52,454 bases of DNA from Nitrosomonas sp. (GTDB taxonomy: Bacteria; Pseudomonadota; Gammaproteobacteria; Burkholderiales; Nitrosomonadaceae), in NCBI GenBank assembly GCA_024281995.1, contig JAMWZW010000014.1, forward strand, positions 1-52,454. The letters run 5' to 3'. Within the stretch, counting starts at the first letter, position 1. Each line of letters opens with the position of its first letter. Both the position numbers and the translations under genes were made by a program. A model generated the notes under the pieces. That model saw nothing but the letters and a program-made list of their open reading frames with translations. It was not told where the DNA came from and did not search any database. Positions 6,943 through 36,493 of the stretch are shown piece after piece.

Positions 6943-8700
6943 TCAGGCAGAATTCAATTTCTGCATCATCTCTGCATGACTTTCAATATAGCGCTGATAC
7001 TTCTTTTCCTTAATGGTATTGATATGTACCAAAATCAAAGCATCTACGCAGTTTGAGAATTTTGGATCGATATTGAAACCCAAAAATTCACATCCGCCCG
7101 GCTGGCATAATTCCACATATTGTTTATATAAAATGGGTACTTTAACGCCAAAATTATCCATCTTCTCTTTTAAAGCAGTATAGGCTTGTTTGTATTCCGC
7201 TTCTGTAGCGACTTTCTCAATACACGCAAATTCATGCATTTTCCCAAAATCGAATGGCAATCTTGCAGTCGCAAGTTTGCGGCTACTACCGAAAAGCTTT
7301 GTATAAAAACTGGCAATCGTTTTTTGTGCAGGTGCCGGCCAAGAGGTACTTAATGAAACCGGTCCAATCATGTAGCGTATTTCAGGATGTTGATGCAGAT
7401 AAGCGCCAATTCCGTACCAAAGATAATCCAAGCTGCGTTTCCCCTGATACCTGGGCTGAATAAAACTGCGTCCCAATTCAATCGCATGCTGCAGATACGG
7501 TATGAATGCTTGATTAAATTCAAACAAGCTATGGGTATATAACCCTGCTTCGCCATACACACTTAGAATATTTCCTGCCTCTCCAATACGATAAGAACCA
7601 ATAATTTCAAGCTCGTCTTCGTCCCACAAAATTAAGTGACGGTAGTAACGGTCATAATCATCGATATCCAAGGCATTTCCAGTACCTTCTTGTGCCTGCC
7701 GGAATGACAATTCACGTAATCGCCCTATCTCACGCATCACACTGGAATTTGGCATATAATCAAATAAATAGATATGCTTACCATCATGTGTTTTACCAAT
7801 CAATGAGGAATCTTGCAGTTCCTTGCGTATGAGTTTAGTGCGAACGGGATAAATAATGTTTTCGATTGACTTGAACAGTTCTTTTTTCTTTTTCTTACTC
7901 AATAGATAAACCTGTTTTCGCATCAGCTTTGCAATAACCTTTTTGGATAGATCCATGGCAACAATGGATTCCCATGGAATCGGCTTACCTATTCGGAATA
8001 CAATTTCACTGCCTTTTTTGTTAAACATCTCATTGACCAGCATTATCGTGCCCAATGGCTTGTAGATACTGGAAAGACCATAAAATAACGAGGAATTTTT
8101 ACCGCCAATATAAACTGGAACAATTGGCGCTTTGGTTTTCTTGGCCAGTGATAAAAAACCGGTTTTCCATTTTCCGTCACGTACCCCTAGCGGAGAAATG
8201 CGTGAAACTTCGCCGGTCGGAAACAAAATAACAGCTTGTTCCGCTTCCAAGGCTTCGACAATTTGGTTGATATTATTGCGATGACTGGCTGATTTGGATA
8301 AGTTATCCACGGAAAGAAATAAGCTTTGCAATGGATCGATACAGTTCAGCAATGTGGTAGCAACAATCTTGACGTCAGTCCTGATCTCCGACACCAGTTT
8401 AAGCAGTGCCAGACCATCCAAAGAACCAAGTGGATGATTGGCCACAATTAACACACGGCGCTGATCAGGTATACGTGTTCGATCTTTGTTGGAAACCTGG
8501 AATGCAAAGTTAAAATGCTCCAGTACAGCGTCGTTGAATTCCAATCCTTCCAGATAGCGGTGCTTTTCAATAAACCGATTGATCTCATCCTGGTGCAACA
8601 ACTTCTTTAATAGCGAGGACGCGGCTTTCATCAACGGCTTTTCGCCGGTTTCTTGCGCATGTTGAAAATAATCATGCAACAACACATCGACATCAAGCAT
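6943..8700 (-). CDS. olsF: OlsF-type bifunctional ornithine-lipid synthase
   Basis: A 585-residue fusion of two acyltransferases. The N-terminal part is a lysophospholipid-acyltransferase-like domain with ANHPLGSLDG (residues 87-96, His89 and Asp95) and FPTGEVSR (160-167). The C-terminal part (about 300-560) is a GNAT-like domain of the OlsB/hemolysin type with RELSFRQAQEGTG. This domain order is that of OlsF, in which one half N-acylates ornithine with a 3-hydroxyacyl group and the other O-acylates the product, giving phosphorus-free ornithine lipids in the membrane. A GAGGAG ribosome site lies 7 bases before the ATG. A PHO-box-like site stands about 54 bases upstream, suggesting induction at low phosphate. 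It could instead be a generic hemolysin-type acyltransferase; the two-domain build argues for OlsF. Confidence 0.8.
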   Translation of the reverse strand: MLDVDVLLHDYFQHAQETGEKPLMKAASSLLKKLLHQDEINRFIEKHRYLEGLEFNDAVLEHFNFAFQVSNKDRTRIPDQRRVLIVANHPLGSLDGLALLKLVSEIRTDVKIVATTLLNCIDPLQSLFLSVDNLSKSASHRNNINQIVEALEAEQAVILFPTGEVSRISPLGVRDGKWKTGFLSLAKKTKAPIVPVYIGGKNSSLFYGLSSIYKPLGTIMLVNEMFNKKGSEIVFRIGKPIPWESIVAMDLSKKVIAKLMRKQVYLLSKKKKKELFKSIENIIYPVRTKLIRKELQDSSLIGKTHDGKHIYLFDYMPNSSVMREIGRLRELSFRQAQEGTGNALDIDDYDRYYRHLILWDEDELEIIGSYRIGEAGNILSVYGEAGLYTHSLFEFNQAFIPYLQHAIELGRSFIQPRYQGKRSLDYLWYGIGAYLHQHPEIRYMIGPVSLSTSWPAPAQKTIASFYTKLFGSSRKLATARLPFDFGKMHEFACIEKVATEAEYKQAYTALKEKMDNFGVKVPILYKQYVELCQPGGCEFLGFNIDPKFSNCVDALILVHINTIKEKKYQRYIESHAEMMQKLNSA

Positions 8701-8753
8701 ATCTTAGCTCCTCATTCCAAAAAATTTCTGATAAGTAAAGATATATGTTTTTT

Positions 8754-8771
8754 ATGACGGGAAAATGACGC
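8754..8771 (-). promoter_or_regulatory. PHO-box-like PhoB site upstream of olsF
   Basis: On the minus strand two heptamers, GCGTCAT (8771-8765) and CCGTCAT (8760-8754), are separated by 4 bases, the spacing of the PhoB binding repeat (consensus CTGTCAT). Exactly 10 bases downstream is TATCTT (8743-8738), a plausible -10. The layout, heptamer-4-heptamer-10-hexamer, matches the site before the glycosyltransferase at 19522. PhoB binding is inferred. Confidence 0.65.
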
Positions 8772-8854
8772 AAAAGAGATTGCCGGTAATAAGAAATAAA
8801 AAAGTAAACTGCGAATTGTTTTTCAACAATCTGAAACGTTCTGATAAACGTAAA

Positions 8855-9829
8855 TTATTCGCCGGGATATTGCATGCCAATCTTTTCTCTGATTTGATCC
8901 ATAATCTCCACAATGGCTAAAGATTCTGCGAGTGGCATGAGAGTGCTTTCAATTTTATTTTGACTAAGACATGAACCTACTTCAGCGGCTTCATACTGAT
9001 ATCCAATCCCACCCCAAGTAATTCGAGGCATTTTTCTGGATCGCCACAGTACCGCCAACCGTGCACGCCAAAACACTGGCAACCAAATTAATCCCTCAGT
9101 GCCAAGAATTAACGCTTGATTGGGAATACGTGTACGAATAGCGCTGGATAGCACAGCAAGCTGACCATTAGCATATTTTAAAGCGATGCCAGCTTGCTCA
9201 TCGACTCCGCTAGCACCCACATGTGCAAGCGCTTGGATAGCGACCGGTTTCAATCCAAACAAATGCGACGCCAGTGCGAGAGGATAAACCGCGACATCAA
9301 GAATTGATCCACCGGCCAATGCAGGATTGAGTAACCTTCCTTCAGGTTGCCATGCAGTTCTGAATCCGAAATCGGCCTTCAGCATACGCACTTCACCAAT
9401 CAATCCCTCATTGACCCACTGCATGGCGCGCTGATACACAGGATTGAACCTCGACCACATGGCTTCCATAAGAAAAAGATTTTTCTCACGAGCGTAAGCA
9501 ATCATTTGCCGAGCTTCTTTTGCATTGACGGCAAACGGTTTTTCGCATAGCACATGCTTACCGTTGGTAAGGCATAACAACGTATGTTCTTTATGAAAAT
9601 TGTGAGGAGTCGCTATATAAATCACGTCGATCTCCGGATCTTTTACCAATTCTTCATATGAGCTATATATCTGCGGAATGTGATGCTTCGCAGCAAAAAA
9701 TTCGGCGCGCGTATACGATCGAGAAGCAACAGCTAAAGCTTCTGCCCCTGGTACTTTTTTGAGATCGACGATAAACCGATCTGCAATTCGCCCAGTACCT
9801 AGAATACCCCATCGAACTAGTTTAACCAT
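8855..9829 (-). CDS. Gfo/Idh/MocA-family NAD(P)-dependent oxidoreductase
   Basis: A 324-residue protein with an N-terminal Rossmann domain (WGILGTGRIADRF near residue 7) and the CEKPFAVN motif near residue 95, whose Lys is catalytic in this family. The C-terminal alpha/beta domain carries GGSILDVAVYP. These enzymes oxidise or reduce hydroxyls of sugars, inositols or dihydrodiols with NAD(P). The closest family look is to the dihydrodiol-dehydrogenase/glucose-fructose-oxidoreductase branch, but the substrate cannot be told. It lies upstream of olsF on the same strand with a 154-base gap that holds the olsF promoter, so co-transcription is uncertain. No strong ribosome site precedes the ATG. 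Confidence 0.9.
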   Translation of the reverse strand: MVKLVRWGILGTGRIADRFIVDLKKVPGAEALAVASRSYTRAEFFAAKHHIPQIYSSYEELVKDPEIDVIYIATPHNFHKEHTLLCLTNGKHVLCEKPFAVNAKEARQMIAYAREKNLFLMEAMWSRFNPVYQRAMQWVNEGLIGEVRMLKADFGFRTAWQPEGRLLNPALAGGSILDVAVYPLALASHLFGLKPVAIQALAHVGASGVDEQAGIALKYANGQLAVLSSAIRTRIPNQALILGTEGLIWLPVFWRARLAVLWRSRKMPRITWGGIGYQYEAAEVGSCLSQNKIESTLMPLAESLAIVEIMDQIREKIGMQYPGE

Positions 9830-10243
9830 GAAAAGATATCGCTTTAATTAATCGGTATTTTCCGTTATTGGATAACATCGATACAGCCCTACATCCGTTA
9901 AATCAAATTTAGATTATTGCATGTAATTACTACAAATTAGAGTGTATCGCGATTGCTACAGTTGCTTAAGATTTATTGATTCCGGGTACGCATTTTCTTG
10001 CATGGATAGCCAACAACATGGGAGCATCAACAATCGCTGATCTATCAATTAATAGTTCGTAACTATGCAATTGCTTCGATAACTAGAAGATAATTTACGA
10101 AAATTTTTTGAATAAAAAGCTAATAAAAAATTTTAACTCACCCAAATGTTAAGAAATTTGTTTCATTCAGTGGCTTTTCTCACGGACACGTTATAACAAC
10201 TCACGTAAGCTTATTAAATTAACTTCATAAAAGAACGATCGGC
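9830..10243. other. AT-rich intergenic region between divergent genes
   Basis: Separates the Gfo/Idh/MocA gene from the radical SAM gene. It must hold both promoters, but no convincing -35/-10 pair was found by eye. A short inverted repeat, ATAGTT-CGT-AACTAT (around 10051-10066), is the only structure noticed. No gene is supported. Confidence 0.4.
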
Positions 10244-11458
10244 ATGCCAAATCATACAAAGAAAGTCGAAATCAATCTAGGCTATGCATGCAATGCAAAA
10301 TGTCCCTTTTGCTATTACTATGAATCTGTTGTCACAAAATCAAATGAACATACACTGACAACAGAAGATGCAAAGAATCAATTAGTACAAGCAAAAATGT
10401 TGGGTATAGAGGAGATCGAATTTACTGGCGGAGAAGTTACACTCCGCAAAGATTTGCCTGAGTTAATCGCGTATGCTAAGAAGAAACTTGGTTTTTCCAT
10501 TGTTTGTTTGATTACGAATGGCATCAGGTTATCCAAACGCGAGTATATGGCTAGTCTTGTCAATGCGGGTGTTGACGATATCCTCTTCAGTGTTCATGGA
10601 CATGATGCGCATACGCACGACTATTTAACGAAAGTACCCCGTAGTTTTCATCACATCATGGATGCCATAGATCACGCCCATGCGTGTGGATTGCGCGTAC
10701 GAACAAATACTGTCGTGTGTAAAGCAAACTATCGGTATCTTACCGAAATTATGCGGCTACTCATTGATAAAAAAGTCGATAATATTAACTTTGTAATGTT
10801 CAATCCGGTCATTCAAGCAAAAAATACCAATATCATCAAAGATGTGTATGTGAATTACGCAGATGCCGGCCAGGAAATCATCAAAGCCATACAATCATAC
10901 GAAGCCGAGTTGCCCCATTTCAATGTTCGGTATATGCCATTCTGCTTTCTCCCCGGGTATGAAAAATACATAACCAATATGGATCAAATGACCTTCGACC
11001 CGGACGAATGGGATAACTTCGCCAGTTTCAGAATTAGAAAAGGTGGTGTTGTCGCCTGGCTATGCACTTTGGTCGGAATCATGCACATTCCCTACCTTGC
11101 TTTTATTGTTAAGCATGGAGTGAAAGCAATATGCACCGCTGGAATGACCCGCTTTTATGTCTTAAAAGACCGGATTAAAACAAGGAGCTGTAAGCAATGC
11201 GCTTATGAAAATGTATGCGATTATATTTATAACGACTATTACACCACTTTTGGTGAAGCAGATATGACACCGGTTCGCGGAAATAAAATATATGATCCTA
11301 CCTGGAGTATGATTGCTGCAAAAAATCGCAAACCCAGTGAATTACCAAAGAAATATCAACAAAGTATTGCTGCCAAGAATACTTTACCTTGGACTGGCAA
11401 TGCGACTACGCATGAAATCGTTCATGGCATACGTTGTACCGAGGATCTCAGTTCTTAG
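10244..11458 (+). CDS. Radical SAM protein with extra C-terminal Cys cluster
   Basis: A 404-residue protein. The radical SAM CX3CX2C motif is at Cys16, Cys20 and Cys23 and binds the 4Fe-4S cluster that cleaves S-adenosylmethionine; the SAM-binding GGE follows at residues 62-64. A second group, Cys316-X2-Cys319-X5-Cys325, with further Cys at 234, 274 and 297, resembles the SPASM/twitch-type auxiliary cluster region (CKQCAYENVC). Such proteins modify peptides, sugars or lipids; the substrate here is unknown. The gene is followed 88 bases later by a heparinase-family gene and then faces wecB, so a role in making or modifying a surface glycan is a reasonable inference, not shown. Confidence 0.85.
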   Translation: MPNHTKKVEINLGYACNAKCPFCYYYESVVTKSNEHTLTTEDAKNQLVQAKMLGIEEIEFTGGEVTLRKDLPELIAYAKKKLGFSIVCLITNGIRLSKREYMASLVNAGVDDILFSVHGHDAHTHDYLTKVPRSFHHIMDAIDHAHACGLRVRTNTVVCKANYRYLTEIMRLLIDKKVDNINFVMFNPVIQAKNTNIIKDVYVNYADAGQEIIKAIQSYEAELPHFNVRYMPFCFLPGYEKYITNMDQMTFDPDEWDNFASFRIRKGGVVAWLCTLVGIMHIPYLAFIVKHGVKAICTAGMTRFYVLKDRIKTRSCKQCAYENVCDYIYNDYYTTFGEADMTPVRGNKIYDPTWSMIAAKNRKPSELPKKYQQSIAAKNTLPWTGNATTHEIVHGIRCTEDLSS

Positions 11459-11546
11459 CAGCAAATATGACCCAGTATTCATGGCAGTTGTCCCGATATG
11501 AAATGTCGATAAACATACCGTTCATTTATACTACCAACTAGTAATA

Positions 11547-13409
11547 ATGTCCCTAGAGGAATTTCTGTATCGGATAATACGTCGCTTATCACTGTTGGCG
11601 ATGTGGATCAAAATGAGAGCCGGTTTTGGTTTGCCATTCAGAAAAAAACATGATCCTGCGCAATATATCTTTTGTCACAGCAAGCAATCCTGCCTACCTA
11701 ATCTTCCCTGGTTCCATGAAACGCTTCCCTCACCTGAATCGTATATTGCTTCCGTAATTTCTGAAAATAAATACAGTTGGCACAAAGAGCCAAATAGAAA
11801 GCGCAAGGCGCTGTGGCCAGCCAAATTTTTTCCACGTATCCGTTTCTCACCGGGTAATCCGATAGGCGATATCCAATCAGTCTGGCATCGATCTCGCTTA
11901 CAAAATCTAGTCACATTAGGCTTAATGAGTCACTTAACGGATAATTCGCACACCCGGCATCAAATCACGCAACACATAGAAACAACCTTGCAATCATGGC
12001 GGAATGCTAATCCTTGGTTGCTTGGTATACATTATATTTCGACGATGGAATGCGCGTTAAGGTTAATCAGCATTTGCCATACATTCGATTTGATCAGAAA
12101 CTCTCAAGTCAGCTCAAAATCTTGGCAAGATCTTACCTATCTCGTGCACAGCCATGCTTATTTCATTCGGCGTAGACTTTGCCTTTATTCATACGCTGGA
12201 AATCACACGCTTGGCGAATGTGCAGGACTGATTTATACGGGCGTACTCTTTCCTGAATTTCCGAATGCTAAAGAATGGTTGTTAACCGGTTTGCATCATA
12301 TGGAACAGGAAGCAAGTATTCAGATTCTTGAAGACGGCGGCAATCGGGAGCAATCTTTTCGTTATCTCGCTTTGATTGTCGATCTATGCGGACTTGTTAC
12401 TGTACTCTTGCAACATCACCATCAACCCGTACCCAAAGCTATTGAACAAGCCTGGAAGCGAGGCAGTGCATTTCTGCAAACATTTGCCACTTCACCGGAT
12501 TACTTGCCTGCTGTTGGTGATAGCGACGATGGTTATGCTTTATCACCCTACCTCAAGCTATCCTGGCAAAATGCCACTAATATTACTCATGCTCTGGAAA
12601 ACCATTTGCAAGTTTTCAATCCATCGGGATATTCGAGAATATTCGGTGCAACCCATCATGGCACCATGCGATTTAGCCATGGCAAACTGGGTGTAGCCTG
12701 TGGATTTGGTCATGGCCATGCTGATGCCTTATCGGTTTGCTGGAACATCGGTGATCAATCACTATTTGTCGATCCGGGAACCTATTTGTATGATGAAGAA
12801 CCACGCTTTAGATATTATTTTCGTGGCACATCGGCACACAATTCCGTGATGGTAGACGGGCTTGATCAAGCATTGCAAAATCATACAACCACATTTGGTT
12901 GGCAACACCCCTATACTGCACAACTGGTGTGGCACCATCCTAATTTTAATAATAAAAGTGTTCTATTAGCTAATCATGACGGTTATAGGGATATCGAAGT
13001 CATCCACTGGCGAGCATTAATATACGATCACCAGATTGGATGGATTATATGGGACCGCTTGGATGGTAAAAGCAAACATACGCTTGCTATGCATTGGCAT
13101 ATAGATGCATCCGTCGAAATACTAGCGAATGAAATCATTATCCACACTGCAGAAGCGGATTGGTACGTTCATGTGAGTGGTGGAAAACCAACGCTATACC
13201 ATGGTAACGAGGACCTGCCTCTTGGTTGGATTGCGAGAAAATACGGAGTACGAGAAGCGATTAATACCTTAAGAATCGAAGCCCAAACCCAATTGCCCCA
13301 TGAATTACTGACGATAATCAGCCTAAGGCATGAACGCTCACCCAAATTTTCTCTGGATGATGAATTAATTACTGTGCTTCGCAATAAAACACAAAATTGT
13401 AATCATTAG
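11547..13409 (+). CDS. Heparinase II/III-family protein
   Basis: A 620-residue protein with the two-part build of the family: an N-terminal alpha/alpha-toroid (GNHTLGECAGL, EDGGNREQSFRY) and a C-terminal beta-sandwich lyase domain. The segment GFGHGHADALS near residue 387 has the conserved His-rich metal/catalytic motif, followed by DPGTYLYDEEPRFRYYFRGTSAHNS. Family members cleave uronic-acid polysaccharides by beta-elimination or act in exopolysaccharide assembly. There is no clear signal peptide; residues 9-20 are only weakly hydrophobic, so location is unsure. It follows the radical SAM gene and its stop lies 3 bases from that of the convergent wecB. Confidence 0.88.
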   Translation: MSLEEFLYRIIRRLSLLAMWIKMRAGFGLPFRKKHDPAQYIFCHSKQSCLPNLPWFHETLPSPESYIASVISENKYSWHKEPNRKRKALWPAKFFPRIRFSPGNPIGDIQSVWHRSRLQNLVTLGLMSHLTDNSHTRHQITQHIETTLQSWRNANPWLLGIHYISTMECALRLISICHTFDLIRNSQVSSKSWQDLTYLVHSHAYFIRRRLCLYSYAGNHTLGECAGLIYTGVLFPEFPNAKEWLLTGLHHMEQEASIQILEDGGNREQSFRYLALIVDLCGLVTVLLQHHHQPVPKAIEQAWKRGSAFLQTFATSPDYLPAVGDSDDGYALSPYLKLSWQNATNITHALENHLQVFNPSGYSRIFGATHHGTMRFSHGKLGVACGFGHGHADALSVCWNIGDQSLFVDPGTYLYDEEPRFRYYFRGTSAHNSVMVDGLDQALQNHTTTFGWQHPYTAQLVWHHPNFNNKSVLLANHDGYRDIEVIHWRALIYDHQIGWIIWDRLDGKSKHTLAMHWHIDASVEILANEIIIHTAEADWYVHVSGGKPTLYHGNEDLPLGWIARKYGVREAINTLRIEAQTQLPHELLTIISLRHERSPKFSLDDELITVLRNKTQNCNH

Positions 13410-13412
13410 CAA

Positions 13413-14471
13413 TCAGTTATAGTCCCTCGTAAAATGCTCTTGCAGGATATTAACAATACGTTGACCCGCCCCCTGTTTGCCGTAAACACATGGAAATTTA
13501 TGGTTATTGTGATAGCGTCTCTGAAGACATACTTTATCGCGGATAGCCGTTGGAGAAAATCCAGCCAATACATTAGCACCCGCAACTATTGTTTCCGGCC
13601 GTTCAGTATTATCTCGCACGGTAACGCAAGGTACGCCAAAAATATACGCTTCTTCTTGAATCGTGCCACTATCGGTAATAATGATCTCGGCAAATTTCTC
13701 GTAAGAGAGTGAAGTCAGTGGATCGACTGGATCAATCACTGCTATCCGTGACAAAAGATCCTGGCTAATGCCATGATTCCTCATGGCTGCCGATGTTCGT
13801 GGATGCATGGGGAAAATCATCGCATCGAATTCATCAGCCAGCGCATTGAGTGCAGTAAAAACATTTCTCATTCTTTGACTGCTTTCAGTAAATTCTTTGC
13901 GATGTAAAGTAACGTACGCATAGTTATCCGAACGCGGTTTAATCAATTCATCAGCAAAATCTTGAATCAGATCAATAGTTGTATTGCCAACATTAAAAAT
14001 CTGCCCACGCAAATCAGGTATCTTTTTTAAATACTCGACTTGATGTTGTGTATAAGCAAAAAGATAGTGCGCAGCACTGTCCACCATAATCCGATTGCGT
14101 TCTTCATACATATGCTTATCAAAAGAGCGCAATCCAGCTTCTACATGAGCCAATTCGACATCCGAATAAATTGCAGCAAGTGCACCCACAAGTGAGGCGG
14201 CAGTATCGCCATTGACAAGAATCAAATCAATTTCATGGCGATGAATTAATTCACATACCCAGTCAATTGCTGCACCAATACTATAGGCTCGGGGGAAAAT
14301 AAAATCTGGTTTATACCCCATTCTGGCAAAAATAACCTCGCGTAACAGCGGATCTTGATGCTGATTAGTATGTAAAACAACAAAATCTATATGCGCGTCA
14401 CGCAGCGCTTGCACAATGGCATAGTTCTTCATGACCTCGGGCCGAGTACCGATGACAATTCCGACTTTCAA
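13413..14471 (-). CDS. wecB: UDP-N-acetylglucosamine 2-epimerase (non-hydrolysing)
   Basis: Interconverts UDP-GlcNAc and UDP-ManNAc in the cytoplasm, feeding surface polysaccharides that contain ManNAc or ManNAcA. Family motifs are visible: GTRPEV (8-13), HVEAGLRSFD, HPRTSAA and TDSGTIQEEA followed by VRDNTERPET. At 352 residues it is a little shorter than the usual 370-380. The start is TTG, overlapping the SGNH stop in the four bases TTGA at 14471-14468, so translation is probably coupled. Epimerases of this fold acting on other UDP-sugars cannot be excluded. Confidence 0.9.
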   Translation of the reverse strand: MKVGIVIGTRPEVMKNYAIVQALRDAHIDFVVLHTNQHQDPLLREVIFARMGYKPDFIFPRAYSIGAAIDWVCELIHRHEIDLILVNGDTAASLVGALAAIYSDVELAHVEAGLRSFDKHMYEERNRIMVDSAAHYLFAYTQHQVEYLKKIPDLRGQIFNVGNTTIDLIQDFADELIKPRSDNYAYVTLHRKEFTESSQRMRNVFTALNALADEFDAMIFPMHPRTSAAMRNHGISQDLLSRIAVIDPVDPLTSLSYEKFAEIIITDSGTIQEEAYIFGVPCVTVRDNTERPETIVAGANVLAGFSPTAIRDKVCLQRRYHNNHKFPCVYGKQGAGQRIVNILQEHFTRDYN

Positions 14472-15031
14472 CGCTCGACTATGGCGGTGGAAAATGATTC
14501 TGCTACAAGACGATTTCCTTGTTCGTTGAAATGAACAGGGTCAACATAGCAATCACGACTCAAACCATTGATTGGTACCCAAAGCATATGTTTATTTTCT
14601 GCACAAAGCTTCTTTATGGCATCGTTATATTGATTGCGTAATTCAACAGTATTTTTACAGAAAAAAATATGCCCATCCGGATAAATAGGTGGAATCTCGC
14701 CACAATATATAGCTTTATACTTCTTGATCAATAAGGCGCGGGCAATCTGGCGGTAATATTCTTCAAAAAGATCGAGAGGCGTTTCATTACCCACATCATT
14801 GGTACCGATCAGTACACAAGCCTGATATGTATCGCTAATCCCTTCAATTTCATTATTAAGTAAAAACCACAAATCACGTGCGGTGTAACCATTCACACTA
14901 CGATTGATCGTACGCCACTGATAGGGTGTGCGCATGGTCAACATTTGTGCAAGGTATAAAGGGTAACAACCATAAGTGCGCGCGCCAAAAGTCTGGCTAT
15001 CACCTATGCAAAGCAAGTTCTGGTAATGCAT
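14468..15031 (-). CDS. SGNH/GDSL-family hydrolase
   Basis: A 187-residue protein with the SGNH blocks: GDSQTFGA at residues 10-17 (nucleophile Ser12), GTNDVGNE (Asn of the oxyanion hole) and DPVHFNEQG near the end (catalytic Asp and His). No signal peptide is visible, so it should act in the cytoplasm or be exported by an unrecognised route. It precedes wecB with a four-base overlap. In polysaccharide loci such enzymes often remove or transfer O-acetyl groups, which is the likely but unproven role. Confidence 0.88.
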   Translation of the reverse strand: MHYQNLLCIGDSQTFGARTYGCYPLYLAQMLTMRTPYQWRTINRSVNGYTARDLWFLLNNEIEGISDTYQACVLIGTNDVGNETPLDLFEEYYRQIARALLIKKYKAIYCGEIPPIYPDGHIFFCKNTVELRNQYNDAIKKLCAENKHMLWVPINGLSRDCYVDPVHFNEQGNRLVAESFSTAIVER

Positions 15032-15467
15032 ATCGCCTTTTTTATTATTGATTACAACTCATCTTGCAGAAATCCCAGTGATTAATGGAAATTAGAAAAT
15101 TATCACTAGCAATGTAAATTTTCAGATCCGTGAAATCACGGTTAGAAGAGTGTCAGATTAGTTGTTTTTGAGAGAATCTTCTACAAGTTATTGTAATTAT
15201 TGAATTCTAATTTTCTTAACTTTATCAATTTTTTTACTCGAAAAATTTTTCAGTCACGATACTTGCCCGTCTAAATTTTCAATGAACGTCGTATTTTACC
15301 CGATTACGCTGAATCTCAGCGTGAGTTTTAAGTAAAAATTCTATCAATACAGTATGTTATTTAAAAAAATCAGATAACCACTGATTTTCACTATCATTTG
15401 CAAAAATGTTACACAAGTTATTAAGAAAATCTTCCTAAAAAAGAATCAGATTTTTGATATCAACAAA
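15032..15467. other. AT-rich intergenic region with a small hairpin
   Basis: Lies between two minus-strand operons, so it should contain the end of the M14/hydrolase transcript and the promoter of SGNH-wecB. A perfect 7-base inverted repeat, ACGCTGA-ATC-TCAGCGT, is at 15306-15322; it is not followed by a T run on either strand. No gene is supported. Confidence 0.4.
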
Positions 15468-16244
15468 TCAATTGTAATTGATACAAAAATTTGCCAAGCA
15501 ATGATGATTAAACCATCGTGAAATTACACAGGCAAGCCATTCTGGTTCATCAAGCGGCAAATCATGGCCTGCTGTGTCATGTTTTAAGTAATCTGTTTGC
15601 CAGGCTTGGGATAATTTCAGACTGCAATGATAGTCCACTAATCGATCGGCAGTGCTGGTCACAACCAGTATTGATTGTCTCGGCTTGTTAACAGGAAGGG
15701 AAAATTTTATTGCTGCAAGAAATTGATTCCTTGCACTGATTGCTGATACGGGACATTGCTGTTGCCAGTTTTGCCAACGGCTGAGCAACTGGTTGTCATG
15801 CCGATGATGATTTGAAGTCAAATCCAGAATATCTAATTCCCGTTTTGTAGGCGTATTGCAAATCATTTTAAAAAGACGAGGGTAAACCATCCAGTGTAAA
15901 CGCTGATAAAACGGAGATAGCGGCCTGACACTGGTGTTGATCAAAACGGCGGCTTCCACTTCATCCGGATAACGGCACATCCAGTCGATTGCGATCATTC
16001 CACCCATGGAGAGGCCAATCAGCGTTAGCGGATAGCTGGCGGTTACCTGCCTGCGCAATGTTTCGGTCATTGCCACAATTGTTGTTGGACTCACGGCACG
16101 GTAGAGTCGTCCATTACCGGGGACATCGGGAGTGCTGATTAAGCTGTGAGGAAAGGATTGCTGTAATTTATCAGTAAATTCACCCCAGTGCCTGGCATCG
16201 CGCAATAGGCCCCGAATGAGGACAAAATGAGTGCAGTCCGTCAT
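15468..16244 (-). CDS. Alpha/beta-fold hydrolase
   Basis: A 258-residue hydrolase with the nucleophile elbow GLSMGG (Ser79) and a C-terminal His in TAGHDLPLDEP; the acid is probably the Asp in STADRLVDYH. The start is set by an ATGA overlap with the stop of the upstream M14-like gene (16244-16241), which implies translational coupling; a GTG three codons earlier is less likely. The substrate is unknown. Coupling to a zinc carboxypeptidase/desuccinylase-like protein suggests both act on one substrate or pathway. Confidence 0.85.
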   Translation of the reverse strand: MTDCTHFVLIRGLLRDARHWGEFTDKLQQSFPHSLISTPDVPGNGRLYRAVSPTTIVAMTETLRRQVTASYPLTLIGLSMGGMIAIDWMCRYPDEVEAAVLINTSVRPLSPFYQRLHWMVYPRLFKMICNTPTKRELDILDLTSNHHRHDNQLLSRWQNWQQQCPVSAISARNQFLAAIKFSLPVNKPRQSILVVTSTADRLVDYHCSLKLSQAWQTDYLKHDTAGHDLPLDEPEWLACVISRWFNHHCLANFCINYN

Positions 16245-17269
16245 GAATACCACAACATCAAAGCCTGCTGTTCCAACTCTGATGCTTCGCTATTATTAAT
16301 CCAATCTTGATAAGACAACGTGGCATGCAGCAAAAATTCCATCAAAATCAGATGGCTTCTCAATACACGATTGAGTCGATGTGGTTTGATTGGATGATAC
16401 AAACCCTGTAATTGCCTAAGTTGCCAAGGGTTTTTGCGAATCCATCGCCACGAACCCATTTCAAGGGTTAAAGGTAGAAAAATATTATTGCTTTTCAGCG
16501 ACCTCAAGTACAAAAAATCCCATAGATCGCCATGCACCAGATAATGCTGGGATTGCGGTTCGAAGAGATAGTCTTGATGCGGATAAGTTTGTATGAAAAG
16601 ATTGCGCAGATTACAAACTTCTTTTAAATGTTTGATCGGCTCAACACGGCTTCTGGCATAAGGAAACCAGATTTGGTTACGAAAACCAAAACCAGAATGG
16701 CAATCCAGAACCAGACTAAACGGTGCAGACAACGCTTGTTGTTCAACAAAATCACACAGCGCTTGCGCTTCCGGTTGCATAGCTTCGCCTGCTTTGCCCC
16801 TATACCAAGGTAATAATGAAGAAATGCGATGACCACCCGCCAGTAAGATGGTTTTCTCAACACTATCAACCGGCGCATTACGCATCAAATCCACGCCCTG
16901 CCCGTTGGCACGTGTGTTTCTCAACATACCGACCGGATTAACGATAGGTATGATGTTAATTCTTACACGTTGCAACATGTCAGCTAAAACCCGATCCCAC
17001 TTCAAGCGTTCCAGCAGGCCTTCAAGAAAAGCGGCGATCACTTGCGTACCAATACGCTCCAAACCATGAATACCGGCCACGTAAGTCACGCACGGCGAAT
17101 CTGCCGCATTATTGCCAAGTGTCAAGACATAAACCGGCAAAGTAACATTCCCGTACGGTACTTGACACAACACTTTGCTCTTTAAATGCCCTGTATTGCT
17201 CTGCTGAATGATCGTTTCGATTTGCTCAAGCTCAGGTAAAGATTGTTTTAATTTCGATGTATCGCGCAT
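16241..17269 (-). CDS. M14-family zinc hydrolase (carboxypeptidase/desuccinylase-like)
   Basis: A 342-residue protein with all key elements of the M14 fold: the zinc motif HGLE (His68, Glu71), NPVGMLRNTRANGQGVDLMRN (about 111-131, substrate carboxylate-binding Arg), the third zinc ligand in DCHSG (His191) and the catalytic Glu270 in TLEMGSW. It has no signal peptide, so it is probably cytoplasmic. The substrate could be a peptide, an N-acyl amino acid or a cell-wall fragment. It is the first gene of a coupled pair with the alpha/beta hydrolase and is divergent from the PlcP-like gene, sharing a 216-base intergenic region. Confidence 0.85.
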   Translation of the reverse strand: MRDTSKLKQSLPELEQIETIIQQSNTGHLKSKVLCQVPYGNVTLPVYVLTLGNNAADSPCVTYVAGIHGLERIGTQVIAAFLEGLLERLKWDRVLADMLQRVRINIIPIVNPVGMLRNTRANGQGVDLMRNAPVDSVEKTILLAGGHRISSLLPWYRGKAGEAMQPEAQALCDFVEQQALSAPFSLVLDCHSGFGFRNQIWFPYARSRVEPIKHLKEVCNLRNLFIQTYPHQDYLFEPQSQHYLVHGDLWDFLYLRSLKSNNIFLPLTLEMGSWRWIRKNPWQLRQLQGLYHPIKPHRLNRVLRSHLILMEFLLHATLSYQDWINNSEASELEQQALMLWYS

Positions 17270-17394
17270 GGGTTAGTAAATATAGCGTACTGCAAAATTT
17301 TCAGTTCACGTGACAATGTAAATCTTACTTCAATCTATCAGTCGTCATCAAAGATTCCATACAAAAGCACACCTTTATTTAAATTTTAATAAAG

Positions 17395-17450
17395 ATTTCA
17401 TCAATATTTAATAAATGCTTCAAGGAAACTTAACAAATACCTTTTATGCT
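17395..17450 (+). promoter_or_regulatory. Degenerate PHO-box-like array upstream of the PlcP-like gene
   Basis: Four heptamers repeat every 11 bases: ATTTCAT (17395), ATTTAAT (17406), GCTTCAA (17417) and ACTTAAC (17428). Exactly 10 bases after the last is TATGCT (17445-17450), a plausible -10. The spacing equals that at the better PHO-like sites before olsF and the glycosyltransferase, but the heptamers match CTGTCAT poorly. Regulation by PhoB is a guess supported mainly by the spacing and the downstream gene. Confidence 0.35.
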
Positions 17451-17485
17451 GTGAAGCCATCACGAACTCACTTAAAAAGGCAGTT

Positions 17486-18298
17486 ATGGTAAAGACTAAA
17501 GCCCCAATCAAAGTAAGAAGTGTTTGGATTTCAGATGTACATCTTGGATTTCGTGGCTGTCAGGCAGAAGCACTATTGCATTTTCTGCACTCGGTCGAAA
17601 CTGATTATTTATTTTTGGTTGGCGATATCGTCGACTTCTGGAGTATCAAAAAAAGCCCTTACTGGCCGCAAGATCATACCAATGTGGTTCGATCGATTCT
17701 GGGAAAAGCGAAGCATGGCACCAAAGTTATTTATATTCCCGGGAATCACGATGAGGCCATGCGCGATTGCATCGGCCATGTATTCGGTAATGTGGAAATC
17801 CATCAGGATTACGTCCATACCACCAATGAAGGTAAAAAGTTGTTGATCATGCACGGCGATGAATTCGATGTCATTGTTAAAAACAGCCGTTGGCTTGCGA
17901 AGCTGGGCAATGTCGCTTATGACACCCTGCTGGATCTTAATCATTATATCAACGGCTTGCGCAAGTATTTCGGATTTTCATACTGGTCACTCGCCGCCTA
18001 CTTAAAATTGCGGGTAAAAAATGCGGTCAGCTACATCAGCAGTTTTGAAGATGCGCTCGCGCATTTGGCAAAGGATCGCGGTGTCGACGGCGTGGTTTGC
18101 GGCCACATTCACCATGCCGAGTTACGCGAAATCGATTCGATACTATATTGTAATGACGGTGATTGGGTTGAAAGCTGTTCCACTTTGCTGGAGCACAACG
18201 ATGGCTCATTGCAATTGGTATTCTGGTCGGAACGGTTCGAGCAGTACAAAAACGAACTTCAGGAAGCATTGGCCGCCACCAATAAAAAAGCCGCTTAA
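17486..18298 (+). CDS. plcP: PlcP-like metallophosphoesterase (phospholipase C type)
   Basis: A 270-residue calcineurin-like phosphoesterase with all metal motifs: SDVHLG (Asp17, His19), GDIVD (Asp47), GNHDE (86-90), HGDEFD (123-128) and GHIHHAE (206-212). These enzymes are often labelled UDP-2,3-diacylglucosamine hydrolase (LpxH). The segments RGCQAE, YWPQ.H, KVKNA-like (RVKNAVSYI) and DWVESC, however, are those I recall from the PlcP branch, a phosphate-starvation phospholipase C that splits phosphatidylcholine or phosphatidylethanolamine to diacylglycerol. The start follows an AAGG site. It precedes a patatin gene by about 100 bases and lies near a glycosyltransferase with a PHO-like promoter, which fits lipid remodelling. 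LpxH activity cannot be excluded from sequence alone. Confidence 0.8.
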   Translation: MVKTKAPIKVRSVWISDVHLGFRGCQAEALLHFLHSVETDYLFLVGDIVDFWSIKKSPYWPQDHTNVVRSILGKAKHGTKVIYIPGNHDEAMRDCIGHVFGNVEIHQDYVHTTNEGKKLLIMHGDEFDVIVKNSRWLAKLGNVAYDTLLDLNHYINGLRKYFGFSYWSLAAYLKLRVKNAVSYISSFEDALAHLAKDRGVDGVVCGHIHHAELREIDSILYCNDGDWVESCSTLLEHNDGSLQLVFWSERFEQYKNELQEALAATNKKAA

Positions 18299-18316
18299 GC
18301 CGTATTACGGGGATGA

Positions 18317-18412
18317 ATGTATGCAATTGATCACTACACAGAAACAACCGATTTGCGTTATGGGCATCATTGGTGGAACGGGCTAATATTGGAAACCTCC
18401 CGTGCCAGTTAA
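18317..18412 (+). CDS. Possible 31-residue small ORF between plcP and patatin gene
   Basis: An ATG at 18317 opens a 31-codon frame that ends at 18412, overlapping the GTG start of the patatin gene by 11 bases. The peptide is rich in Trp, His and Tyr and resembles nothing I know. A GGGG stretch just upstream is only a weak ribosome site. It may be a leader that couples translation, or simply chance. Confidence 0.2.
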   Translation: MYAIDHYTETTDLRYGHHWWNGLILETSRAS

Positions 18413-19313
18413 ACATGTATTGAGTCTGGATGGCGGTGGCAGTCATTTGCTCATTCAATTAAGCGTCCTGGCGTGCTTAGAAGAAGATGCCGGCACTTCA
18501 AGCTACGATTTATTTGACATGATGGCTGGTTCATCCTCAGGGGGGCTCATTACTTGTTTAATTATGGGGCGACGCATAAGTGCGAAAGAAATCATTCGAC
18601 TTATTGAACAAGACCAGCTATTAAAAAGGATAATGAATGAAAATTGGTTGAACCGGTTATTTAATAAGTTGCAGATACGCCCGAAGTATCAGGGTAAGCC
18701 GAAAAGATTAACGTTACAACAGGAATTAGGCCATCTAAGACTTTCATCACTTAATAAACGGATACTGATTCCTTGCTTCAATCTGAATCAGGATCAATTG
18801 GAAATCATTACCAATGACAGTCAACCGGATTTTTTACTCAGTGAAATTGCCGATGCTTGCACAGCAGCCCCCTCGTTTTATCCTCCCGTACAAATGGAAG
18901 ATGGCGATTGGCGTATTGACGGTGGTGTTGGCATGAATAACCCAGGCCTTTGTAGTTATTTGCATGCTCAGCAATATTGGCAACATCAGAAAATCAAAGT
19001 CCTTTCTATTGGATCAGGTTGGCGTAGTTTCGCCATAAGCGGTAACAAGGCGTGTAGATATGGCGGTTTACAATGGTCTGCCAAAGGAATTGCCTCCATC
19101 ATCCTACGGGAAAAAATGATAACCAATGTCAAAATGACAAACGAAATGCTGGGAAATAATTTGCTTTACATTAATCATCACTTAAAAAAATTTGACATGC
19201 CTGACAGCATGGATTCAGCTAATAACCCAGTATTGCTACGAAAAGCGCTAGATATCGGCAAGTTATGGTATGACCATCAACAGCAGCAAATTGAACAATG
19301 GCTGAATAGTTAA
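18402..19313 (+). CDS. Patatin-like phospholipase
   Basis: A 303-residue patatin-domain lipid acyl hydrolase. The glycine-rich oxyanion loop is DGGGSH (10-15), the nucleophile is Ser45 in GSSSG (43-47) and the second dyad residue is Asp173 in DGG (173-175). Such enzymes deacylate phospholipids or neutral lipids using a Ser-Asp dyad. There is no signal peptide. The start is GTG, giving a VPVKHVLSLDGGG-type N-terminus close to the family norm. It sits downstream of the PlcP-like gene on the same strand, so the two may be co-transcribed and act on the same membrane lipids. Confidence 0.9.
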   Translation: MPVKHVLSLDGGGSHLLIQLSVLACLEEDAGTSSYDLFDMMAGSSSGGLITCLIMGRRISAKEIIRLIEQDQLLKRIMNENWLNRLFNKLQIRPKYQGKPKRLTLQQELGHLRLSSLNKRILIPCFNLNQDQLEIITNDSQPDFLLSEIADACTAAPSFYPPVQMEDGDWRIDGGVGMNNPGLCSYLHAQQYWQHQKIKVLSIGSGWRSFAISGNKACRYGGLQWSAKGIASIILREKMITNVKMTNEMLGNNLLYINHHLKKFDMPDSMDSANNPVLLRKALDIGKLWYDHQQQQIEQWLNS

Positions 19314-19378
19314 TTCACCAAATTCTTCATTCTTCCCATGGCACCTACAGATTTTAATGCCATCCTGTTCTCAATAAA

Positions 19379-19434
19379 TTGTCATACAAATGTTAAATCA
19401 ACGTCATTTTTCTGTCATGACACCTCGCTAAAAT
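19379..19434 (+). promoter_or_regulatory. PHO-box array and -10 upstream of the glycosyltransferase
   Basis: Four heptamers recur every 11 bases: TTGTCAT (19379), ATGTTAA (19390), ACGTCAT (19401) and CTGTCAT (19412). The last is identical to the PhoB consensus half-site. Exactly 10 bases after it stands TAAAAT (19429-19434), five of six matches to the -10 consensus, which is the known spacing at PhoB-activated promoters. The glycosyltransferase ATG follows 87 bases later. This is the clearest PHO-like site in the window. Confidence 0.75.
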
Positions 19435-19521
19435 CTCCTCGTTTCTTAACAGCCTGTTAAACAGGTTACTAGCCGAAAAGCAATGCCACAACCAGACCCA
19501 TCGAATGAGGAATAAGCGATC

Positions 19522-20565
19522 ATGAAAATCTTTTATGGCATCCAAGGAACCGGTAACGGCCATATAACACGCGGCAGGATTATGGCCAGGGAGTTGCAAG
19601 CGGCGAATCTTGACGTAACTTATCAATTTACGGGTAGGCCGCAAGATAATTTTTTTGATATGCAGGTTTTCAATGATTATCAATGGCGTGAGGGTTTAAC
19701 CTTTAGCACTCAGAGAGGCAAAATCAATCATATCAAAACAGTGCTACAGTCCAATCCTTTGAACTTTCTAAGAGACATTAAGCAACTCGATTTGCGTGAC
19801 TATGACGTGGTAATTTGTGATTTTGAACCGGTCACCGCGTGGGCGGCACGCCGGCAACGCAAGAAAACCATCGGCATCAGTCATCAATATGCATTCCAAT
19901 ATTCCATTCCACGGGCAGGTAATGATCTGCTTTCTGAAACGGTGATGAAAAATTTTGCGCCAGTCGATATGGGTATTGGTCTGCATTGGCACCATTTCGA
20001 TCAACCCATTTTACCGCCAGTCATCGAAACGCCAGCAATATCTCAGCAAACACAAACAAACAAAATTGTCGTTTATCTGCCATTTGAAGATCAACACCAA
20101 GTCATGTCACTGTTAGCGCCGTTCAACAATTTCGAATTTTATAACTATTCTCCCGAAATAGTGCCTGCGCTGCACGCACACATCCATTGCAAGCCACTGT
20201 CTTTGCAGGGTTTTCAAAATGACTTGGTTGACTGCGCTGGCATTATTTGTAATGCGGGCTTTGAATTAGCCAGCGAATCGCTGCAGTTGGGCAAGAAAAT
20301 CCTGGTAAAACCGGTACATGCGCAGATGGAACAAATTTCTAATGCGTTAGCGTTAAAAACTTTAGGTTATGGACAAATGATGAAGGTGATGGATTCTGCC
20401 TCGATAGAGCAATGGTTATATGCAACCCAAGCAGTTCGTATTACTTACCCCAATACGGCACGATATCTGGTGCAATGGATAAAAGACGGTATGCCGCCAA
20501 TTGATCGATCATGGTATCAACAGATTTGGTCGAGTGTGCAAGTAATGCCTGTTGCATGCTCCTAA
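19522..20565 (+). CDS. MJ1255-type glycosyltransferase, possible diacylglycerol glycosyltransferase
   Basis: A 347-residue GT-B-fold protein with the N-terminal glycine-rich loop GTGNGHITRG (9-18) and, in the C-terminal half, CNAGFELASESLQLGKKIL, the nucleotide-sugar binding region. This is the uncharacterised MJ1255/VC2487-type family. A GAGGAA ribosome site precedes the ATG. The promoter has a strong PHO-like array, and a diacylglycerol-kinase-fold gene follows 66 bases later. Position next to plcP and a patatin suggests it glycosylates diacylglycerol to replace phospholipids when phosphate is scarce. That function is inferred from context only, as the canonical Agt enzymes belong to a different glycosyltransferase family. 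Confidence 0.8.
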   Translation: MKIFYGIQGTGNGHITRGRIMARELQAANLDVTYQFTGRPQDNFFDMQVFNDYQWREGLTFSTQRGKINHIKTVLQSNPLNFLRDIKQLDLRDYDVVICDFEPVTAWAARRQRKKTIGISHQYAFQYSIPRAGNDLLSETVMKNFAPVDMGIGLHWHHFDQPILPPVIETPAISQQTQTNKIVVYLPFEDQHQVMSLLAPFNNFEFYNYSPEIVPALHAHIHCKPLSLQGFQNDLVDCAGIICNAGFELASESLQLGKKILVKPVHAQMEQISNALALKTLGYGQMMKVMDSASIEQWLYATQAVRITYPNTARYLVQWIKDGMPPIDRSWYQQIWSSVQVMPVACS

Positions 20566-20631
20566 TCAAGCATTTGAAATGCATTCACCTATGATTAACA
20601 TACTGAATATTAAAAATTTTTCTTACACGCC

Positions 20632-21633
20632 ATGAATGATATTTTTCCATTTCAGTCCGATCAATTGATCATCAAAATCCCATCTCCAAACAACATATTG
20701 ATTATTTACAATCCCATATCCAGTGCAGGCAATACGGAAGCACTCGCGAAAGGGCTGGAAATGGAACTATCTCGCCAGGGTAAAAGCGTAGTTGTCCGCA
20801 CATCCGAAAAAAAGATGAAGGGCTACTCACGCGTCAAGGATGATATTGTCAAAAGCGACTTGGTCGTAGTAGTTGGCGGGGACGGAACTATCCGGAAGTT
20901 GCTGGATATCATCAATAAAACCGGCACGCCTATTTATGCGATACCTGGCGGTAATGAATCGTTATTTGCACGCTCCTATGAAATGAGCACAAGCGCTCAT
21001 GACTTACTTGAGGCGATAGCGACAGGAACCTGTTTGCAGCAATTTTATGGCTTGATCAGCGGTCAAGGCATTCAAGGTGAAAAGCCTTTTTTTCATATGG
21101 CCTCTATGGGGCTGGATTCATTAACAGTCAAAAATATCGGTAAAAGAAAAGGTCCGCTCAATGATTCCATTTATGTCTGGCACGGGTTAAAAGCATTATG
21201 TGCCTTGCATCACCCGACCGTATCCGTCAGCGTTGATGGAGAACCGGTTATTGATCACGGATCCGGTTATATTATCGTGGCCAACAATTCTGCATATGCG
21301 AGAAACTTACAACTTGTTCCCTCAGCCAATCCATCAAACAGTGAATTGGTGGTTGGCTTCTTGCCGGGCGCTAAGCACCAGCATGAACTGGTAAAAGCTA
21401 TGAAAATTCTGCAGCGTAAACCGGCAAATTTACCTATGCAGTATTATTCAGGAAAAAAAATTGCCTGTACACTTCACGATAAATCGTATCCACTGCAGGT
21501 CGATGGCGATTATTTCCGTAATCGCGATATCGAAGCCGGGAGCGCTGTTGAATTCAGCATCAGCACGCGGCCTATTCGCGTTTTGATTCCATCGTCGTTG
21601 AATAGCGAAGCATTACAAGTTGCCAATCAATAA
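20632..21633 (+). CDS. Diacylglycerol-kinase-fold lipid kinase
   Basis: A 333-residue protein of the DAGK-catalytic/YegS/sphingosine-kinase fold. It has the start LIIYNPISSAGN (23-34) and the nucleotide-binding VGGDGT (81-86), followed by AIPGGNESLFARS where other members have a G-T-x-N-D/F stretch. The C-terminal domain ends with the usual DGDYF segment. It should phosphorylate a lipid hydroxyl, most likely diacylglycerol to phosphatidate. It follows the glycosyltransferase in the same direction and probably shares its PHO-like promoter. Its stop lies 13 bases from that of convergent ftsH. Confidence 0.88.
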   Translation: MNDIFPFQSDQLIIKIPSPNNILIIYNPISSAGNTEALAKGLEMELSRQGKSVVVRTSEKKMKGYSRVKDDIVKSDLVVVVGGDGTIRKLLDIINKTGTPIYAIPGGNESLFARSYEMSTSAHDLLEAIATGTCLQQFYGLISGQGIQGEKPFFHMASMGLDSLTVKNIGKRKGPLNDSIYVWHGLKALCALHHPTVSVSVDGEPVIDHGSGYIIVANNSAYARNLQLVPSANPSNSELVVGFLPGAKHQHELVKAMKILQRKPANLPMQYYSGKKIACTLHDKSYPLQVDGDYFRNRDIEAGSAVEFSISTRPIRVLIPSSLNSEALQVANQ

Positions 21634-36306: not shown

Positions 36307-36493
36307 AATAACTCCTTGTTAAAGGTAAAAAGAAAAGCAATTAAAAAAAGAACACTTCAATTAATAGCATGCCATTAATGAATGATTTGCGCCATATCAT
36401 ACATGCATTTGCCATTAATTCTTCATACTTCTGTCATCATATTTTCATATTTAATGTTTATGCTTTCCGTCATGTTAACTTTGAGGAAAAATT

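Follow-up and report, generated by a model that had tools for sequence, protein, structure and literature searches.

An MJ1255-family glycosyltransferase in a candidate phosphate-starvation lipid-remodelling locus of Nitrosomonas

How might a bacterium that has a PlcP-like phospholipase C and no recognisable Agt make glycolipids when phosphate is scarce? In published papers, as far as their accessible text goes, PlcP and the glycosyltransferase Agt serve as markers of phosphorus-saving lipid remodelling capacity. The question is raised by a locus in the window, the whole stretch of 52,454 nucleotides analysed here, which is contig 5 of a 2.88 Mb Nitrosomonas genome. An original prediction, made from the letters of the window alone, placed five lipid genes in this locus, coding for OlsF, a PlcP-like phospholipase C, a patatin, an MJ1255-type glycosyltransferase (GT) and a lipid kinase. 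All five are open reading frames (ORFs) at the predicted positions, and domain and family models bear out each assignment. Does the GT do the work of Agt? Or does it glycosylate some other acceptor, with PlcP close by for reasons of its own? We consider it likely, with a probability of about 72%, that the locus is a Pho-controlled lipid-remodelling system in which an MJ1255-family GT stands in place of Agt. The features on which this reading depends are as follows.

6943-8700, minus strand: OlsF, bifunctional ornithine lipid synthase, 585 aa (NF052615, PF19576, PF13444)
8754-8771, minus strand: Pho-box-like site of two repeats upstream of OlsF, 11/14 (p=0.017)
17373-17423, plus strand: degenerate phased Pho-like array of five repeats upstream of PlcP, 20/35 (p=0.015), common to the divergent M14 gene
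17486-18298, plus strand: PlcP-family phospholipase C, 270 aa (PF00149; PlcP-type identities)
18402-19313, plus strand: patatin-like phospholipase, 303 aa (PF01734, 84 bits)
19379-19418, plus strand: Pho-box array of four half-sites upstream of the GT, 22/28 (p=0.003)
19522-20565, plus strand: MJ1255/VC2487-family GT-B glycosyltransferase, the proposed diacylglycerol glycosyltransferase, 347 aa (TIGR00661, PF13528, GT-B model)
20632-21633, plus strand: DAGK-type lipid kinase, 333 aa (PF00781)

The first line of evidence is the distribution of these genes among 125 searched Nitrosomonadaceae genomes. The GT is present in 46 and PlcP in 54. PlcP accompanies the GT in 44 of 46 genomes and Agt in none. 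Full-length Agt was found in nine genomes, all of which have PlcP and none the GT; the weakest of these nine matches scores 535 bits and the next best match 51 bits. A search of the source genome for Agt gave no match. Agt and the GT exclude each other within the family. The nine Agt genomes coincide exactly with the set that has a second PlcP lineage, 48–51% identical to the window PlcP. The two Nitrosomonas PlcP groups are separate in a PlcP tree that has long branches and weak deep forks and is used here solely for this separateness. Agt directly follows PlcP in all nine. Genomes with window-type PlcP have the GT in 44 of 45 cases, the exception being G039, which is 76% complete (G and L numbers denote genomes and loci). 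In four of the eight Agt loci that were read (L106, L107, L108 and L110) the PlcP-Agt pair has as neighbours the lipid-kinase, patatin, M14 and hydrolase genes that are also found in the window. Pfam identifies the gene before PlcP in L106 as a GNAT acyltransferase, and weak OlsF matches at this place point to such a gene in 7/9 Agt genomes.

The genes are also physically linked; a search for PlcP and this GT together in relatives was the check put forward with the original prediction. Of the 44 genomes with both, 36 have the GT and PlcP on the same contig, at most 3 kb apart in 29 and at most 10 kb apart in 35. OlsF gives a full or large match in 41/46 GT genomes, in a count that omits 8 of 60 genomes whose matches are weak or fragmentary. 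OlsF and PlcP are on one contig in 27 GT genomes, and in 23 of these they are at most 13 kb apart. The table of these distances covers 37 of the 41 OlsF-bearing GT genomes. G040 has no PlcP, and G051, G053 and G059 are outside the table; G051, with a distant OlsF on the same contig, was added by hand to 26 to give the 27, and G053 and G059 have OlsF on other contigs.

The second line of evidence is regulatory. Upstream regions were scored for CTGTCAT repeats at 11-bp spacing against 300 dinucleotide shuffles, with p values uncorrected over 15 regions. Besides the arrays listed above, the PlcP region contains a four-repeat match of 17/28 (p=0.053, or p=0.025 in a second scan). The GDSL gene (15031, minus strand), which has no lipid role, likewise has an upstream array of 17/28 (p=0.023). 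Since 15 regions were scored without correction and the GDSL gene also reached this score, a single weak array is no evidence. Conservation is more telling. A site of at least 11/14 is present upstream of the GT in 27/30 relatives, six of them perfect, and upstream of OlsF in 17/29 (one partial gene dropped), in rows that come from related species and are hence not independent. The background is 16 of 244 upstream regions, taken from mechanical ORFs of which some are probably not genes. The best OlsF site is at -65 to -72 in 26/29 relatives. The GT and OlsF carry conserved Pho boxes, and from these sites both would be under the control of PhoB. Two PhoB proteins score over the curated cut-off in the source genome, one with a 16/21 Pho-like triple upstream of its gene. 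The two promoters described as clear in the original prediction are thus conserved, and the third is degenerate, as it had said. This third promoter, that of PlcP, has a phased array, with the best three-repeat match at a constant position in 25/30 relatives and a five-repeat array at p≤0.05 in 15/30, but in 28 of 30 genomes it stays under the threshold for two repeats. Among the Agt operons, 3/6 upstream regions reach 11/14, with two of eight rows excluded (L105_4 because it is PlcP, L107_6 because its ORF is shortened). Genome-wide, an 18-bp Pho pattern with up to 3 mismatches has 222 matches against 160 for the reversed control, so that an isolated match means little. One such match, a second one within the window, at 36431-36448 (2 mismatches), 379 bp before a CorA gene, was set aside, the 300-bp upstream scan giving only 8/14 there.

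To which family does the GT belong? It scores 241.5 bits against TIGR00661 (MJ1255/VC2487), over the cut-off of 195.9, and PF13528 is its only Pfam glycosyltransferase match. Membership of GT4, the Agt family, was rejected because PF13439, PF00534 and PF13692 are not matched, whereas the Agt-type neighbour in L106 does match GT4 domains. Membership of the GT28 type (UgtP, MGD1) was rejected as well, PF06925 and PF04101, which we take to be the domains of GT28-type diacylglycerol glycosyltransferases, giving no match at E≤0.001. The predicted structure has a GT-B fold (pLDDT 91.7), and its closest folds are YojK, the UGT51 sterol glucosyltransferase and MurG. As MurG is among them, the GT may be remotely related to the GT28 type. 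A sequence search of solved structures gave no match under E 0.26. From the mutual exclusion with Agt and from the partners of the GT we infer that it transfers a sugar onto diacylglycerol; which sugar would be used is likewise conjecture. The nearest named GT loci are those of Nitrosomonas, one of them, from a metagenome-assembled genome (MAG), being 92% identical to the window GT, in agreement with the nitrifier host that had been predicted.

These partners can be followed beyond Nitrosomonas. A scan of named sequences with the GT gave 76 loci, and together with 8 loci from a class search 59 are from outside Nitrosomonas; among these 59, at least L253 repeats L224, and the G480 stretch is L224. 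In 44 of the 59 the gene just before the GT carries a PAP2 motif, and Pfam finds the PAP2 domain in 16/16 chosen upstream proteins. The figure for random stretches, 75/1140, includes PAP2 genes that adjoin the GT and is not a clean background. In many loci the PAP2 and GT genes overlap or almost touch, as judged from mechanical ORF starts. A Pho-like site of at least 11/14 precedes 12 of 29 PAP2-GT units, compared with about 5% of 891 other upstream regions, again from mechanical ORFs that are in part probably not genes. Within Nitrosomonas, PAP2 was found upstream of the GT in 0/30 GT search loci and 0/25 named loci, and only in L098 of G074, where the order is PlcP-patatin-PAP2-GT-kinase. 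This arrangement looks like an intermediate. In addition to this PAP2 gene, G074 has another copy of PlcP at a different place, with no GT close by (L098:8303-8830, L099:9263-10066).

PlcP itself is present in 102 of the 369 genomes in a class-wide sample. In 28 non-Nitrosomonas PlcP loci fetched from this sample, the gene straight after PlcP is at least 42% identical to Agt in 21 cases and matches it more weakly in 2. PlcP pairs with the GT as well. In G480, an uncultured gammaproteobacterium, PlcP is followed by the GT after a 115-bp gap, without PAP2 or Agt; in L248 (G373) the order is PlcP-PAP2-GT; and in the Rheinheimera loci L211 and L212 PlcP is divergent from PAP2-GT. Outside Nitrosomonas, PlcP is present in 6/7 genomes that match the GT strongly, against 94/360 of the others (Fisher, p=0.002), a strong match being one with E below 1e-80; nine genomes qualify, 2 of them Nitrosomonas, and G159 (1.8e-44, with PlcP) and weaker matches are excluded. 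Because either PAP2 or PlcP adjoins it, the GT is repeatedly partnered with a potential producer of diacylglycerol.

In a tree of 43 GT sequences, hand-picked from the window and the 76 loci, the Nitrosomonas GTs cluster with those of Methylobacter and Methylomonas (support 100/98), which suggests transfer between the Nitrosomonas and methanotroph lineages in either direction. Ornithine-lipid-like genes were also seen close to some distant GTs. L209 (a Desulfobacterales MAG) and L216 (a deltaproteobacterial MAG) have OlsF-like genes of 32–33% identity a few genes from the GT, and in L189 (Methylolobus) and L191 (Methylotetracoccus) an OlsB-like GNAT gene of 38–40% identity follows shortly after PAP2-GT.

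The reading that we prefer would work as follows. At low phosphate, PhoB would switch on the promoters of the GT and of OlsF, and possibly also that of PlcP, which is weaker. PlcP, going by its family, would remove the phosphate head group from phospholipids to leave diacylglycerol, and the GT would then attach a sugar from a nucleotide sugar to this diacylglycerol, the task of Agt (GT4) in other bacteria. It is the mutual exclusion and the GT partners that lead us to assign it this role. In parallel OlsF would produce phosphorus-free ornithine lipids, again as its family predicts. The patatin might trim acyl chains and the lipid kinase might convert surplus diacylglycerol back to phosphatidic acid. 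As to its origin, the GT probably entered Nitrosomonas together with PAP2, in a pair akin to the PAP2-GT pair of type I methanotrophs, and then teamed up with PlcP, PAP2 subsequently being lost, it would seem, from nearly all Nitrosomonas species examined.

Several observations weigh against this reading. In G052 a distance of 955 kb separates the GT from PlcP, and in 8 genomes the two are on different contigs, which the draft state of the assemblies may or may not explain. The GT occurs without PlcP in G036, as a fragment with a stop, and in G040, and PlcP without the GT in G039. OlsF is absent from 5/46 GT genomes, far from PlcP in G070, G044, G052 and G051 (where it is split in two), and in a further 13 it lies on other contigs. 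Because the genomes are related, the Fisher and count comparisons overstate independence. Upstream PAP2 is missing from 15 of the 59 non-Nitrosomonas GT loci, and PAP2 enzymes act on further substrates as well. Only 2/30 PlcP upstream regions reach 11/14, and a Pho box is lacking both before PlcP in G480 and before the GT in L043 and L044, Nitrosomonas loci in which PlcP stands directly before the GT. A kinase that rebuilt phosphatidic acid would oppose phosphorus sparing. Finally, we know of no activity, sugar or lipid for any MJ1255-family protein, and in V. cholerae the chitin regulator ChiS binds upstream of VC2487, according to the accessible part of one report (PMC11856585).

Three other explanations have to be set beside it. 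The one that survives best, though we think it unlikely, holds that the GT is Pho-controlled and acts on a different acceptor, such as PAP2-dephosphorylated lipid A or polyprenyl phosphate, PlcP being a separate function nearby. PAP2 enzymes do include lipid A and undecaprenyl-pyrophosphate phosphatases, MurG, which is among the fold matches of the GT, works on an undecaprenyl carrier, and PAP2 rather than PlcP is the usual GT neighbour outside Nitrosomonas. However, it is PAP2 that is missing from all the Nitrosomonas GT loci surveyed except L098, while PlcP stays; the exclusion between Agt and the GT, and the PlcP gene directly before the GT in G480, speak against it too.

A second explanation, that these genes are adjacent without a joint pathway and that the Pho sites of the GT and OlsF are real and serve separate functions, is improbable. 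OlsF and the GT each have their own promoter, patatin or PAP2 is variably present, and the distance in G052 fits such independence. It does not account for the co-occurrence in 44/46 genomes, for the proximity within 10 kb in 35/36 same-contig genomes, or for the recurrence of the PlcP-GT pairing in G480, G373 and Rheinheimera.

The remaining alternative turns on what the PlcP-like protein is. Pfam gives it the PF00149 metallophosphatase domain, and DVH, GD, GNHD and GHIHH stretches, presumably metal-binding, can be read in its translation. Its identity is 55% over 236 aa with a P. aeruginosa PlcP-type protein (L239), 47% over 241 aa with one of S. meliloti (L238), and 26% over 119 aa with E. 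coli LpxH. The L238 gene adjoins acyl-homoserine lactone synthase and LuxR genes. PlcP matches were seen on three P. aeruginosa plasmid records, and in the one opened, L239, the gene overlaps a glycosyltransferase gene. Judging by gene order, the L238 and L239 proteins are presumably the characterised PlcPs. PA3219 is PlcP and lies in an operon with Agt1, according to the accessible part of PMC8528852. A sequence search of solved structures with the window protein gave a single match, an LpxH (E 8e-5), and LpxH-family models match it weakly. The protein belongs to the PlcP family and is nearer to PlcP than to LpxH, and its activity would be that of a phospholipase C that leaves diacylglycerol; identity as an LpxH was judged unlikely by sequence identity and genome distribution. 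That the protein substitutes for LpxH in lipid A synthesis, in a cluster for envelope maintenance, is very improbable, for although LpxH exceeds its cut-off in 0/41 genomes of the genus, the source genome included, and LpxI was not found in the source genome, the identities just given favour PlcP, the S. meliloti and P. aeruginosa proteins match the LpxH models just as weakly, 52 of 99 near-complete genomes of the family lack PlcP, and several complete Nitrosomonas genomes (for example G013, G014 and G015) have neither PlcP nor LpxH, so that another enzyme must perform the lipid A step. A YaeI/LpxG-like protein (L236:1312-2259) is a candidate for that step.

OlsF exceeds the cut-off of its equivalog model NF052615 (782 bits against 620), and no difference from the bifunctional ornithine lipid synthase was seen. 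In the patatin, GSSSG and DGG stretches are visible, which we presume to be of functional importance. Its best NCBIfam model is NF041079, for the phospholipase of CBASS (cyclic-oligonucleotide-based antiphage signalling systems); this identity was rejected at 134.3 bits, under the cut-off of 200, and the patatin is still kept in GT-type and several Agt-type lipid loci. The lipid kinase call holds at the level of the domain (PF00781, 56 bits against 23.6), but the protein misses the cut-off of TIGR00147 (YegS/Rv2252/BmrU; 51.4 bits against 118.65). Its gene starts 66 bp past the GT, with which it is probably co-transcribed; it adjoins the GT in relatives and is close to PlcP-Agt in four Agt-type loci.

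Between OlsF and PlcP two kinds of neighbour can be told apart. The first consists of two genes upstream of PlcP.

15468-16253, minus strand: alpha/beta hydrolase, kept neighbour (PF12146/PF12697/PF00561)
16241-17269, minus strand, divergent from PlcP: M14-type protein, kept neighbour (PF00246)

Both are kept in GT-type and in four Agt-type loci, without an obvious remodelling role. The second is a block at 8855-15031 with Gfo/Idh, radical SAM, heparinase II/III, UDP-GlcNAc 2-epimerase and GDSL genes. It resembles glycan metabolism and is outside the lipid set, because in L093, L096 and L103 a single short ORF stands there instead, between OlsF and the hydrolase-M14-PlcP group. The predicted 15-kb set therefore holds for its five lipid genes, while its span also takes in these five that are not members. 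L095 carries four of the gene types of this block, which L093, L096 and L103 do not have at that place. In some Nitrosomonas loci a GDPD-type phosphodiesterase gene (PF03009) and a phosphoesterase-like gene lie directly before PlcP (L100:6177-8651, L098:11226-13714, L181, L182 and L185), which suggests a larger phosphate-scavenging cluster.

How does the locus compare with known systems? In the PlcP-Agt remodelling of Phaeobacter, Pelagibacter, P. aeruginosa and Methylosinus, as the accessible parts of the papers describe it (PMC4796936, PMC8528852, PMC9239053, PMC8231724), the PlcP family is the same, Pho boxes are present, an ornithine-lipid gene is nearby and a glycosyltransferase is close to PlcP. 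The window differs in that its GT belongs to PF13528/TIGR00661 and not to GT4, and is served by a Pho promoter of its own, which lies about 1.2 kb beyond PlcP, with the patatin gene in between. The original prediction argued that, Agt being the known partner, the enzyme here would be a new solution. A PF13528/TIGR00661 enzyme in this role was not found in the open-licence literature, and neither was a role for MJ1255, VC2487 or the PAP2-GT pair, or for ornithine lipids and the Pho regulon in Nitrosomonas. But non-Agt enzymes beside plcP have been reported. In the text available from these sources, other putative glycosyltransferases follow plcP, one linked to di- and triglycosyl-diacylglycerol (PMC4796936), a GT21-type processive enzyme is beside plcP (PMC4796936, PMC8231724), type Ia methanotrophs have a B. 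subtilis-type diacylglycerol glycosyltransferase there (PMC9239053), and the families listed for known glycoglycerolipid synthases are GT4, GT21 and GT28 (PMC8231724). These enzymes are of other sequence families than the window GT, which hence adds one more family to earlier departures from Agt. The MJ1255-type GT of Methylobacter marinus and luteus (L183, L186) adjoins PAP2, with no PlcP found within the 19-kb loci, and so, going by position, it is not the plcP neighbour of PMC9239053 in these species.

We also lean, with less assurance than for the preferred reading of the locus, towards the wider view that MJ1255/VC2487 is an overlooked bacterial family of diacylglycerol glycosyltransferases of phosphate starvation. 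PAP2 phosphatases would supply its substrate in many Gammaproteobacteria, and PlcP would do so in Nitrosomonas. On that view, counts of PlcP and Agt underestimate the bacteria able to make glycolipids under phosphate scarcity, ammonia oxidisers and methanotrophs included. Adding one glycosyltransferase family to those known, and PAP2 as another possible source of diacylglycerol, would extend the set of bacteria judged able to save phosphorus in this way to ammonia oxidisers and to a larger number of methanotrophs and marine Gammaproteobacteria. A family that so far has only the names of two genes would thereby gain a suggested function. Within a single genus, the two mutually exclusive pairings of PlcP with a glycosyltransferase would amount to a natural experiment.

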